From Phanerodontia chrysosporium (Eukaryota; Basidiomycota; Agaricomycetes; Polyporales; Phanerochaetaceae), in the NCBI GenBank assembly GCA_001910725.1, contig MJGA01000017.1, positions 1-64,000 on the forward strand: 64,000 bases of DNA, in the 5' to 3' direction. The position numbers and the translations under genes are program-made. Each line of letters begins with the position of its first letter. Positions within the stretch are counted from its first letter, which is position 1. The notes below the pieces were generated by a model, which worked only from the letters and a program-made list of their open reading frames with translations, had not been told where the DNA came from and did no database searches. Positions 22,062-30,994 of this stretch are shown one piece after another.

Positions 22062-22281
22062 TGACTACTCACGACGCACGGTTAACTATCAGAGAGTGTG
22101 ACGACCACCCTACATACTATGTTGTACGCGAGAGTGGTCGATGCTTGCGTGTACATGAAAGCTGCAGACTTGCGACTCTTGCGAGGCGCGAGTATTTGTG
22201 ACCGTGACCCGCCCGCGTATGGCGGCGCGCCGGCGCTCAACTCCACACCTTTCAGGCGCAGACCACCACATTCCCTCAGCC

Positions 22282-23387
22282 ATGTCAGACATATCGGCAC
22301 CCCCGATGGGCGCACCAGCGATGGCTGCGCCGCCGCTGGCCATGGATCCCGCGCACCCGCCACCAGGGCCCATTGTCGCGCCTGCGCCAGTTCCTGCGGC
22401 CCTTCCCCCGGCCAGCCAGCCCAGCCCCAGCAGCAGGAACAGGCGACCGAGACCCTCTACATCCAGAACCTGAACGAGAAGATCAAGATCCCCGTGCTGA
22501 AGGCGAGCTTACGCGGTCTTTTCAAGGCGTACGGCGAGGTCCTGGACGTCGTCGCACACTCGAACCTGCGCATGCGTGGGCAGGCGTTCGTGTCGTTCGA
22601 GAACGCGGAGATCGCGAAGAAGGCGTTGAAGGAGGTCCGAGGGTTCCCGCTGTACTCGAAACCGATGGTACGTCTCATGGTTCTGTTCGGAGTGTGCATA
22701 CTTACCCTGCCGTAGCAAATCTCGTTCGCGCGGACGCGGTCAGACGCTGTCGTGAAGAAGCTTGACCCAGCCAGCTTTGACGCACACATCGAGAGGCGGA
22801 AAGAACACAAAAGTATGGTCTCTTAGAGATCATTACATGCACTCCTCAAGCTGAACCTGTGTTGCAGAGGCGACAAGGTACACCAACCCGATCAAGGCGA
22901 AGTTCCGCCAAAAGCGTTTGGCAGCAGAAAGTGAGTATTCTGTCCGTAGCTGTGCTAAAAATATATTGACCCGAAAAATAGTGGACGGTGCTGGTGCTGC
23001 TCCAGTATCAAGACGTCCAAATGTCATGATGCCCGACGAGTACCTGCCGCCAAACAAGATTCTCTTCTTGCAAAACTTGCCAGAGAATGTCACCAAGGAC
23101 CAGCTCATGGCTCTGTTCTCTCAGTATGCCCAACTGTATCATAGCTTCCTTTCCGTCGCTGACGCCATGCAGGTACCCCAACTTGTACGAAGTTCGTCTT
23201 ATCCCGACCAAGAAGGATATTGCCTTCGTCGAATACTTGGACGAGGCAAGTGCGACTGTTGCCAAGGACGCTCTGCACAACTACAAGTTGGATGGCGAAA
23301 ACAAGATCAAGGTGAGGGACATACGCTCTCTGAGCATGCACTTGACTAACCATGTTTGTTCCGTAGATTACATTCGCAAGAAAGTAA
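22282..23387 (+). CDS. U1A/U2B''-type snRNP protein with two RRMs
   Basis: Start ATG 22282 (MSDISAPPMGAP). A Pro/Ala-rich leader runs into a C run at 22405-22409, where one added C joins it to GQPAQPQQQEQATETLYIQN. RRM1: TLYIQNLNEKIKIPVLKASL with RNP1-like RMRGQAFVSF. An alternating charged linker follows (ISFARTRSDAVVKKLD, HIERRKEHK). RRM2: KILFLQNLPENVTKDQLMALF, EVRLIPTKKDIAFVEYLD, ending NKIKITFARK at TAA 23385-23387. NLNEKIK and the two-RRM layout are diagnostic of the U1A/U2B''/SNF family, which binds U1 stem-loop II or U2 stem-loop IV with A'. Several introns (about 22673-22715, 22815-22866, 22931-22981, 23135-23170, 23312-23366). One gene probably serves both snRNPs in fungi (inference). 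Confidence 0.88.
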
Positions 23388-24443: not shown

Positions 24444-25057
24444 CTTCCCCCTCAATTTCCTTCGGTCTTTATTCTCTAATATCGGATGCTACGGGCCGTT
24501 TCTACTTTCTATCTTGTACTTCTCCGTGTAGACTTTCTAACTGGACAGTTTATTATCAGTGCAAAGGGACTTGCCGACGCAAAGCGCGGCGTAGGACGTA
24601 GGGCGGGATTGATGCGTACTGCATCTCAGATCTCAGATGCCGAACTTGACCCTCCCCTCGACGGACAGTAGTAGCACGATCCGCTTCTCGAGTCTTCAAC
24701 GTCGCTCTTCAATACTGTTCTATAGTCCAACGGTCATGCTATCCTATCCGCTCGACCTAGCGTCTGAATCGCGGCGCGCGATACCCATAGCGAGAGTTTT
24801 AACGCAAACTCAACATGCTCCAGAACGCTGAACACTTCAACACGAACACTCCAGGGCCCATCATTAGCGCATGTACGGCATGTACATACAGATACTCGCG
24901 CCACGAACGTGACTCGAGGTCCCTGAGCACAGGATGCTTGGTCGCGGGGCCGACGGTGGTACGTCAATTACTCATGACTCAACGTTGTTGATACAAGTGA
25001 CCGTGCTTAGCCTGAGCAGCCACATCATCTGCATCCTTGTACCCCGGCGCGAGTCCT
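24444..25057. other. Intergenic before the RNA-repair gene
   Basis: About 610 nt upstream of 25058 with no recognised gene, repeat or RNA. Confidence 0.45.
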
Positions 25058-27659
25058 ATGGAGTTGCAGAAGTACCGTGGCTGTCTTGCGTTGCTTGGCC
25101 CCAGGATCGACGAATTGGCCATTAGTGCACACATTGGCGACTACACCTTCCGACCGACCGACAGTCCATACCACGTCACTCTTATCACGAAAGACGAGTT
25201 CCGAGCCCTTAAGCACGAAATATCTGCTCAGGACACCCTCACTCGCCTGCACAAGACTTTCGCCTCCGATCCGCCGAAGCTGCATCCACTAGGTGTCGGT
25301 GGACAACCGCTTGCCAAACCCGATGTGTTCTTTGTTGTCACTGTGTGGGCAAAGGGCCAGCAACTTCGAAAAATGCTGGGCCTCCGCCAAAGGATTTCCA
25401 CATAACCCTCTCGAGGCAGGATGCTCACGACGTGAGCAAAGGCGTCGCCTCTCTCTTGCATCCCTTTCCTCCGGACGCTTCTGCAGAGTTACTCGACCAC
25501 CTAGTCTTCACACTTCACGCTATGGACGACCACGCACTCGCAATAGAGTACTCAACAAGGCTTTCTGCCCATTTTCCTGCATCAGAGAAGGGTTTCCTAC
25601 GCCTGGGAGACAGCGCTCTAAAACTCGGGAGCACGAAGCTTGCTATGCTGTCATACTCCTGTGGATTCCGCCTCACCGATGACCCCAAGGTCCAGGAATA
25701 TTGCGTCCGAAAAATTGCGAGCTGTGCCAAAGACACCGAGCTAGGGACAATCTGTGCTGAGTGGGAATTCTCGCAGCTGCCCAGCGAGCTATTCAGCCCA
25801 TTGCTCACGCCCTGGCCTCGTGAGTTGTTAGATGCTCTCGGTGAAGTGTCAAATACAGCTTCCCGTACTACCCTCTGCCGCTTCTCTCGGGATCAGCTCT
25901 ACATACCTGCGCCTGCCCGGTCAACAGAACAATGGTACCGGATACCGCGCTTCTTTCAATGGCTCGTCCCTTCAAGATAGCCCTAATGTCCACACCGAGG
26001 AATGCAACCGATATTACAGCACTCAGCTCGCCGCATATCGGCATACGCCACATTCTCACCCTCACTAAGGAGACCCCGCTGGACGCCAAATGGTTCACCA
26101 GCACCAGAGTCAAGAATACGTTCATGCCGATACCGAACTATCATCCTCCAACGATCGAGCAGGTCGACCTGATAATCAAGCTCTTGTGCGACGACAGTAA
26201 CCTACCCGTGCTCATCCACTGCGGCGGGGGAAAGGGCCGAGCAGGCACAATCGCGGCTTGCTTGCTCGTAGCCTTTGGCTTCAATGTCCCTACCTTGGAC
26301 CGTAGCATCACGCAGCCAGCAATGTCAGCATCCGATGCTATCACAACTCTTCGCATCATTCGTCCAGGCAGCATAGAGACAGAGCGACAGGAAGCGTTCG
26401 TGAACAAATGGGCAAGTACGATTTGGAAACGACAATCCATATTCCCCGAACCCGTCCCTGAACCGCCACCCTGCCCGTTGGAAGTAGACGGCACCCTTGA
26501 GCCCTCGAGCAACCTCTTCATCTTCGTCGGGCTGCCTGGTTCCGGCAAGTCCTGGGTTGCCCATTCGTTGCTAGCGCGCGACCCGCGAAGTTGGGAGTGG
26601 ATCTGCCAGGACGAGGCAGGCAGCCGCTCCGCCTGCGAGACGGCCATCGGCCGTGCACGGAGTAAGACGCATGTCATCCTCGACCGCTGCAACGCATCTG
26701 TCGCCGAGCGTGCCGCGTGGCTGGCGCTCGCCGCGCACTGGTGCGTCGCGCCCGTGTGCGTGTGGTTCGACTACGACGCTGCGCTGTGCACGTACCGTGC
26801 GCAGAACCGTGCGGGACACCCTACGCTGCCGCCAGGCGGGCGTGTCCGGAACGCCGTTGCGCAGATGCAGCGCGAGCTTGTCGTCCCCACGCGTGCAGAG
26901 GGCTTCGCCGCGGTGGTGACGGTGCGCTCGTTCGCTGCTGCCTCTGAGCTCATCACGAGGCTCTCGCCGCCCGTCGCACTCTTCAAGTTCCCGCGCACGC
27001 CGCACCTGCTCGACCTCGGCGCAGCGACGGCGGACGACGACGTCTCCTCGCTCCCACCTGCCGCGGGCGTGCACGTCGTCATCACCGAGAAAGTCGACGG
27101 TGCGAACATGGGCTTCTCCCTGGATCCGAACGGCACGCAGACCGTGGCGCAGAACCGCTCGCACTACGTGAACCCCGCCTCGCATGCGCAGTTCCGCAAA
27201 CTCGGGACATGGCTCGACGCGCACAGTGCCGGTCTACGACGCGTGCTCGGGCGCGACACGCACTTCCCGCAGCGCTACGTCCTGTTCGGCGAATGGCTCG
27301 CCGCGACACATTCTGTTGCGTACACACGCCTGCCGGACTGGTTCCTTGCTTTCGATCTGTACGATCGCACGACACAGGGTTGGGCGGACAGGCGGACGCT
27401 CGAGGCACTCCTCGCGAACACGGGTATCCAGCTGGTGCCTGTGCTATACCAGGGGCCTATGCCGGTCGAGGCCGAGCTGAGTGCCATGGTGCAGCAGCAG
27501 TCACGGTTTACCAACAGTCGATTGGAGGGTGTCTATGTGAAGGTTGAGAGAGACGGGCGGGTTGTGAGCAGAGGGAAAGTCGTTCGACAGGATTTCATTG
27601 CCGGGAACGAGCATTGGACGAAGGGACCGTTGCAGACGAATGATGTCCTCCACGATTGA
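25058..27659 (+). CDS. Multidomain RNA end-healing and sealing protein (2H-DSP-kinase-RNA ligase)
   Basis: ~866 aa in what looks like one exon. Start MELQKYRGCL at 25058. Residues ~35-120: 2H phosphoesterase with two HxT motifs, PYHVTLIT and DFHITLS. ~140-230: helical TPR-like repeats (HALAIEYSTRLSAHFP, AMLSYSCG). ~304-440: dual-specificity phosphatase, loop HCGGGKGRAGT (C-x5-R). ~480-640: P-loop kinase, GLPGSGKSWVA, then HVILDRCNAS. ~670-866: Rnl2-like ligase, motif I EKVDGANMGF (Lys nucleophile), FGEWLAATHS, WFLAFDLYD, motif IV EGVYVKV, motif V-like GKVVRQDF. Together these could open 2',3'-cyclic phosphates, remove phosphates, phosphorylate 5' ends and seal. Canonical fungal Trl1 has the order ligase-kinase-2H and no phosphatase. 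Two one-base deletions (25378-25380 GGG; 25968-25970 CCC) split the ORF. Function inferred from motifs. Confidence 0.8.
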
Positions 27660-29456: not shown

Positions 29457-30726
29457 ATGTCCCCCCAAACGTACCCTCTCTTCTGCTTGGGCAACCCCCT
29501 CCTCGATATCCAGGTCTTCAACGGCGAGGAGCTCCTGAAGAAGTATGATCTCAAGGCGAACGATGCTATCCTCGCCGAGGAGAAGCACATGCCTTTGTAC
29601 GTTCTCATCCGCGCATCCCGCGCAGAGTAGCCTGCCTATCTGCATCTGATCAGGTACGATGAGCTTGTGAAGAACTACAAGCCTACCTACGTCGCTGGAG
29701 GTGCTGCTCAGAACGCCGCGCGCGGAGCTGCTGTAAGTCTATCAGTCCTCCACAAAGCGGCACATCCAGCTGATTATCAGCGCGTACAGTACGTCCTCCC
29801 TCCGAACTCTGTCGTTTACACCGGCTGCGTTGGCGACGATGAGCTCGCTGAGCAGCTCCGCGCTGCCAACCGCCGTGAGGGTCTCACCGATGTCTACCTC
29901 GTCAAGAAGGGCGAGAAGACTGGTGCTTGCGGTGTTATTATCACCGGCCACAACCGGTGCGCGTTCTTCTCATGGCGTCTGGGTAGCGTTCTCACACTCT
30001 AATTGCCAGTTCCCTCGTTACCACGCTCCGCGCCGCGGAGAAGTTCGAAAAGTCCCACCTCTCCTCGCCCGAGGTCGCGCCGCTCGTCGACGCCGCCAAG
30101 GTCTTCTACGTCGAGGGCTACTTCTTGACGCACGGCACCGAGTCCGCGCTCGAGCTTAGCAAGAAGGCGTCCGAGGCGTCCAAGGTTTTCGTGCTTAACC
30201 TCTCCGCACCCTTCATCCCGCAGTTCTTCGGCGTGCAGCTGCAGCAGATCATCCCGTACTGCGACATCATCATCGGCAACGAGTCTGAGGCCGAGGCGTG
30301 GGCGAGCGCGACCGGCTTCCCAGACAGCAAGGACCTCGGCGCGATCGCGAAGGCGCTCGCGACCCAGCCCAAGGCGAACCCCTCGCGCCCCCGCATCGTC
30401 GTCATCACCCACGGCGCAGAAAGCACGACCGTCGTGAGCTCGGACAACACCGAGAACGTCCAGATCGTCCCGTGCACGCACTCGCGGACTCGGACATCGT
30501 CGACACGAACGGCGCCGGCGATGCCTTCGCGGGCGGCTTCCTCGGCGCGTTCGTCGCGGGCAAGAACCTCGAGGAGTGTGTCGAGGCCGGCCACAAGCTC
30601 GGCGCGATGTGTGTCCAGCAGGTGCGCTTTGCTTTCTTCCTGCCCCAACGCTTTGCAGCCTTCTCACGTGCGTGTACTTCTTAGATTGGTCCCCAGTACA
30701 AGTGGCCGAAGGTCAACATCCTCTAA
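29457..30726 (+). CDS. Adenosine kinase (PfkB family)
   Basis: Five to six exons from ATG 29457 (MSPQTYPLFCLGNPLLDIQV) to TAA 30724-30726. PfkB motif 1 is split by an intron: YVAGGAAQNAARGAA, then VYTGCVGDDELAEQL. Downstream: VFYVEGYFLTHGTE; FVLNLSAPFIPQFF; CDIIIGNESEAEAWA; VVITHGAEST. The catalytic PfkB motif 2 is DTNGAGDAFAGGFLGAFV, with the Asp base in GAGD. It phosphorylates adenosine to AMP with ATP, salvaging adenosine from S-adenosylhomocysteine turnover. The frame breaks at the CCC run 30469-30471: one more C joins NVQIVP to HALADSDIVDTN. The last exon encodes IGPQYKWPKVNIL. The length (~345 aa) is typical. Confidence 0.93.
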
Positions 30727-30994
30727 GCGTAGACGCATCTTGAACGCTCTCAACAGCATGGCCTCGGTGTTCAACCACATTCCCCATCTTGCTCTCCCCA
30801 GCATGTATCGATAGTCTTGACACACGTTCTCGTTGCTCCTATCTCAGTAACAGCATACCCTCACGGTTCCGACACAGTTAGGCGCGTTGGTCTAGTGTAC
30901 AAATATGCAAAGTTCAAATTAGAAAGCTGTGGTATCATAATGTGTGAAGTGAAGAAGCATGTAAGAAGGTATATAGTCACGGATATGCGAGCTG

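Follow-up and report, generated by a model that had tools for sequence, protein, structure and literature searches.

Introduction

Proteins in which a 2H phosphoesterase, a helical segment, a DSP phosphatase, a P-loop kinase and an RNA ligase follow one another on a single chain are already known: in Pfam they form a family named Swiss Army Knife (SAK), with the dedicated models PF22547 (2H-SAK) and PF22784 (PTP-SAK), and the name reportedly goes back to Burroughs and Aravind in 2016. The literature, searched by title and abstract start, yielded no work on the biochemistry of an entire SAK protein, and nothing relevant on Mucorales kinases or under the SAK names. The classical fungal ligase Trl1 has a ligase of the PF09511 type and no DSP, and its domains stand in an order different from that of SAK. 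In T4, end repair relies on separate proteins and on a phosphatase of the DxDxT type, and this branch leads to a 2',3'-diol and a 5'-phosphate, while the yeast and plant branch leaves a 2'-phosphate (PMC3400036).

The window analysed here, i.e., the whole stretch of 64,000 nucleotides from Phanerodontia chrysosporium (contig MJGA01000017.1, positions 1 to 64,000), had been the subject of an original prediction, made from the letters alone, of a five-module RNA repair polypeptide whose architecture might have been listed before; the dedicated Pfam models bear out the latter supposition. What the present analysis contributes is the coexistence of SAK with Trl1 domains, the Asn in the WPD loop of the DSP together with a remote Glu, and the presence of the SAK core in bdelloids, oomycetes and a fern.

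Results

The SAK gene occupies positions 25058..27659 on the + strand, as delimited by collinear tblastn matches of five relatives, and reads as one exon in which the frame shifts twice by one base; its 2,602 bases correspond to 867 codons and a stop minus 2. Three open frames cover it (25037-25405, 25345-25980 and 25932-27659, +), and the motifs originally quoted were all found there on the + strand in the expected order (PYHVTLIT, DFHITLS, HCGGGKGRAGT, GLPGSGKSW, EKVDGANMGF, EGVYVKV). The encoded modules are, in order, a 2H phosphoesterase, a TPR-like helical segment, a DSP phosphatase, a P-loop kinase and an Rnl2-like ligase. Pfam profiles matched the pieces of the window with E-values of 1.1e-14 (2H-SAK), 2e-51 (PTP-SAK), 1.6e-14 (AAA_33) and 3.8e-35 (RNA_ligase), values which, with 79% identity over 560 residues to a Phanerochaete sordida protein, exclude a chance match. 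PF22547 scored 55.2 bits and PF22784 174.5 bits, against a cut-off of 27 for each. The 2H and the ligase, the two domains on which the original prediction had staked its reading, are thus both matched by their profiles. A search for HAD_SAK_1 gave no match in the fungus's own genome, and the control genomes were equally silent, so this result is uninformative.

The 2H phosphoesterase (25058..25431, +) is matched by PF22547 on the first piece, and its HxT motifs at 25172 and 25399 flank the first frame step; on the second piece its tail is matched weakly by Pfam (E 0.16) but at E 4.4e-8 by a family-specific profile. A search of PDB sequences with the 2H piece gave no match up to an E of 10. What had been proposed as a helical linker is indeed a helical segment (25474..25845, +), refined here to TPR-like on the strength of weak matches: two designed chains of consensus TPRs gave whole-sequence matches to the family profile (E 3.8e-4 and 1.3e-3) with no single stretch passing alone, the AF2 model of this piece has pLDDT >90 over most of its length, Foldseek returned TPR proteins as best, weak matches (best E 2.2e-3), and the Pfam TPR models were each found in just one of 30 members. 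There follow the DSP (25968..26429, +; P-loop Cys at 26220), the P-loop polynucleotide kinase (26502..26966, +; AAA_33) and the nucleotidyltransferase domain of the ligase (26979..27611, +; motif I Lys at 27090), which match in structure the folds of DUSP23, PNK kinases and T4 Rnl2, respectively. The crystals of the closest solved kinases contained GDP. By its nucleotidyltransferase domain, motif I Lys and Rnl2 fold the ligase fits the Rnl2-like class (PF09414), though it stays below the cut-off of the NCBIfam Rnl2 equivalog TIGR02307 (11.8 bits vs. 197.15, E 0.12). Full-length T4 Rnl2 has a C-terminal domain; a domain of this type is absent here, with 25 residues past motif V in the P. sordida protein and 18-29 in five others examined.

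The closest named relatives were Phanerochaete species (among the best 120 of 685 matches), and the locus is collinear with residues 1-862 of the 867-residue P. sordida protein (P0001), whose residues 1-109, 99-303 and 303-862 matched frames 2, 1 and 0 in tblastn with identities of 57, 62 and 79%, respectively, the segments joining at 25384 and at 25968-25971. All five relatives aligned in order to the three frames, starting at 25058 (25064 in one) and ending at 27647-27656, and in four of them the query ranges abutted or overlapped at the frame changes, P0012 leaving two residues over at the first step. Their matches revealed no further break beyond the steps from frame 2 to frame 1 (25372..25402, +) and from frame 1 to frame 0 (25955..25985, +), both in C-rich stretches. 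An intron at the frame changes was ruled out, as the homologue matches leave no intron-sized gap, so that a single gene is read across the three open frames. DSP, kinase and ligase lie in the same open frame; that the 2H and TPR modules belong to this chain we infer from the collinearity of the locus with relatives that have all of them on one chain. The proposal of one gene with five modules is supported. Separate genes for the 2H-TPR part were considered and appear unlikely: a search with that part alone gave four proteins (238, 281, 371 and 422 residues), two of which also carry PTP-SAK. P0236, of 281 residues, has PF22547 only and might be a separate protein; P0233 from the same search, whose longest contig equals that of P0003 in length (16186), may form with P0003 the two parts of one split gene model. 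A 575-residue piece of SAK found a single match in the 39.0 Mb assembly (145 contigs).

Between 2 and 3 kb downstream of SAK, a gene of the PfkB family (29640-30811, +), presumably an adenosine kinase by its motifs and as such a housekeeping gene, switches frame within conserved sequence, next to a short run of C; one frame carries the PfkB profile as far as position 249 and the other takes it up again at 243, with no room for an intron, and this switch is suggestive of base-call errors in the assembly. Upstream, two RRM frames (22086-23346, +; E 5.1e-9 and 4.1e-4, the latter just below the cut-off) perhaps make up one two-RRM protein of snRNP type. Signs of a conflict locus were absent from 20 other stretches of the window scanned with Pfam, and PADLOC contained no defence-library match to SAK. 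Trl1-type domains (PF09511 ligase, Trl1-type kinase and PF08302 CPDase) were likewise absent from the pieces of the window at E up to 10, and a profile search for PF09511 and PF08302 located both in the same genome on contig C63, at 183.6-186.0 kb, so that SAK is distinct from Trl1 as originally proposed. In the surrounding region (C63:182500-188500) the Trl1 domains are distributed over several exons, and the genome has both ligase systems.

Catalytic residues were counted over 232 aligned homologues, made up of the best 120 of 685 and the best 120 of 516 matches, 8 being common to both, from searches that each scored only the roughly 8,000 candidates with the most words in common. The Cys and Arg of the DSP P-loop (HCx5R, here HCGGGKGR) are kept in 220 and 221 of the 232 rows, the Lys and Asp517 of the kinase in 230 each, and the Lys and Asp679 of the ligase in 227 and 220. 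The HxT...HxT pair of the 2H is found in 108 rows; another 83 have gaps in place of all four residues, and in the remaining 41 the set is partial or variant. The claim that all catalytic motifs are intact has to be amended for the DSP, where alignment to solved phosphatases places an Asn at the general-acid position of the WPD loop (26136..26138, +), although the Glu equivalent to the remote general acid Glu134 of DUSP23 is present (26376..26378, +). In the alignment, by hand count of residues, N359 corresponds to D65 of DUSP23 and E439 of P0001, within the motif RPGSIET, to E134; the WPD-loop Asp itself is present in the five solved relatives aligned, two of which are DUSP23. Over the 232 rows, the WPD position is N in 203 (203 of 213 aligned), D in 9, K in 1 and gapped in 19, and the remote position is E in 226, Q in 1, G in 1 and gapped in 4.

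The taxonomic survey suggested along with the original prediction recovered all five modules, by profiles built here, in 142 of the 232 homologues, with TPR-DSP-PNK-RNL in 34, DSP-PNK-RNL in 49, PNK-RNL in 4 and no ligase in 3; these counts do not estimate natural frequencies, because the second query was trimmed to 470 residues and the length filter thereby dropped most of the 850-residue mushroom proteins. Some of the shorter rows may be incomplete gene models, and the four proteins of the 2H-TPR search lie outside the 232. Among the best 120 of 685, the source records give many relatives the name 'ATP dependent DNA ligase', by which the family is hidden. Among the best 120 of 516, the named holders outside Agaricomycetes include Kwoniella, two chytrids, Dothideomycetes, Sporobolomyces, Pseudohyphozyma, two Ustilaginomycotina, two oomycetes, Trebouxia, a fern and three bdelloid genera. 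All five modules were matched in Trebouxia C0004, Myriangium, Gaertneriomyces, Acaromyces, Sporobolomyces and Pseudohyphozyma; in the named oomycetes and bdelloids the three-domain core alone was matched, and in the fern also the TPR, weakly.

Core identity to P0001 was 56-57% in bdelloids and 47-49% in Sporobolomyces pararoseus and Acaromyces, a pattern that suggests horizontal transfer; identity alone is weak evidence for it, because a chytrid reached 52.5% and an oomycete 51.3%. In a tree of 72 rows (38 named), hand-picked from the 232 with none dropped for length, the fork of bdelloids, Agaricomycetes and an oomycete-chytrid group is drawn open (94/93), and thus fixes neither the sister group nor the direction of transfer. 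P0140, P0148, P0152 and nine more rows (559-605 residues) form a tight clade, the three named ones being bdelloid and matching DSP, kinase and ligase only; PF22547 is listed for none of the 12. The Kwoniella proteins P0123, P0126, P0128 and P0129 nest in Agaricales beside Moniliophthora, possibly by transfer between fungal classes or as a tree artefact. P0168, labelled Pseudogymnoascus, is 61% identical to the core of the window, far above the other named ascomycetes among the best 120 of 516, and is possibly a contamination. Among prokaryotic and phage loci (15 loci; 80 kept of 82; scans on two short peptide patterns each) none spanned the five modules, and matches covered the ligase only, the DSP only, the kinase only, or kinase and ligase. 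The latter span occurs on two viral contigs (L071 and L076), and phages may carry partial kinase-ligase fusions or adjoining genes.

Discussion

RNA end repair, as originally put forward, is the best reading of the predicted modules, and we assign a probability of about 0.75 to the SAK locus encoding an enzyme that heals and seals RNA ends, its phosphatase removing the 2'(3')-phosphate ahead of ligation. The activities, their order, the substrate and the role in repair are all predicted from the sequence. The 2H domain would open a 2',3'-cyclic phosphate to a phosphomonoester, and the DSP would then remove the resulting 2'(or 3')-phosphate with nucleophilic attack by the P-loop Cys and with the remote Glu, rather than a WPD-loop Asp, as general acid. 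The kinase would phosphorylate the 5'-OH, and the ligase, adenylated by itself on the Lys, would join the 3'-OH to the 5'-phosphate, while the probable task of the TPR-like segment is to hold the modules, RNA or a partner. The DSP could alternatively act on inositol phosphates, proteins or 5'-triphosphates. With DSP, kinase and ligase lacking any 2H or TPR profile match in 49 of the 232 rows, and TPR occurring without 2H in 34 more, the 2H step so appears not to be essential to the family, unless many such rows are incomplete gene models. One protein would hold every predicted RNA end-repair activity in many mushrooms, here beside Trl1, and the implication is that these fungi are repeatedly confronted with broken RNA bearing 2',3'-cyclic phosphate ends. 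The exchange of the general acid in the DSP opens the way to a direct test of the mechanism, as does a bdelloid core identity above that of some basidiomycetes for horizontal spread.

Two frame steps inside 2.6 kb are what would be expected of a decaying pseudogene, in which the steps are real and no full protein is made by this strain. Yet the match to P0001 extends over residues 1-862 of 867 with just those two breaks, its last 560 residues past the second step being 79% identical and ungapped, and the PfkB-family gene nearby, albeit a small sample of one neighbour, also changes frame in a conserved stretch. Since that gene has a step of this kind too, an error in base calling is more probable than decay, in agreement with the original view of the frame breaks as assembly errors, and we regard a pseudogene as quite unlikely. 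The SAK gene is real and well supported, and probably functional.

The replacement of the WPD-loop Asp by Asn in 203 of 213 aligned rows could also mean that the DSP is a non-catalytic, phosphate-binding or scaffold domain, the 2'-phosphate being left as with Trl1 and requiring a separate phosphotransferase. One study describes Glu134 of DUSP23 as the primary acid and Asp65 as subservient, and several PTP-fold enzymes, RNA 5'-phosphatases included, as devoid of the WPD motif (PMC9038691). For both reasons the loss of the Asp is no argument for a dead DSP, and because the remote Glu is kept in 226 of 228 rows the domain is probably active, which makes a purely structural role unlikely. SAK might equally be taken for the fungus's tRNA-splicing or HAC1-type mRNA ligase in another architecture, its Pfam domains offering all the chemistry for splicing-type ends. 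This we hold to be very unlikely, Trl1-type domains being absent from the pieces of the window at E up to 10; since the genome has Trl1 ligase and CPDase domains elsewhere, SAK is probably not its tRNA-splicing ligase.

A broader picture can be drawn tentatively, and is doubtful in its entirety: SAK would be a complete second fungal RNA-ligation pathway beside Trl1, leaving a clean junction because a VHZ-like phosphatase, with remote Glu and Asn for Asp, strips the 2'-phosphate left by the 2H, and its three-domain core would have been exchanged between fungi and bdelloid rotifers, in which it might form part of an RNA-ligase response induced by fungal attack. PF13563, which bears on the last point, is presumably a 2H family. 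According to the report on that response, fungal attack makes bdelloids strongly induce RNA-ligase genes that they acquired horizontally, the domain named in the induced set is PF13563, RNA-ligase enrichment is absent under desiccation, and the top matches of the induced ligases are bacterial or phage (PMC11258130). Those top matches disfavour the induced ligases being the SAK core. RNA ligases also figure among the genes over-expressed after rehydration or radiation in a further study (PMC10809525).

Compared with the SAK family of Pfam, the locus has the same domains in the same order and no difference in architecture, this copy being out of frame twice in the assembly. Trl1 combines in a single protein the ligase, the kinase and the 2H activity that SAK is predicted to have as well. 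T4 Pnkp with Rnl1/Rnl2 shares the logic in which the 3' end is brought to a diol, the 5' end is phosphorylated and the two are sealed, and T4 Rnl2 has the ligase fold of SAK, whereas SAK possesses a 2H and a Cys-based DSP and has all its modules fused. SAK would resemble T4 Pnkp plus ligase, and not Trl1, because its phosphate is predicted to be cleared before sealing and no 2'-phosphate would stay at the junction. DUSP23/VHZ, finally, has the fold, Cys P-loop and remote Glu of the SAK DSP, but in SAK the Asp of the WPD loop is Asn and the phosphatase is fused to RNA repair modules.
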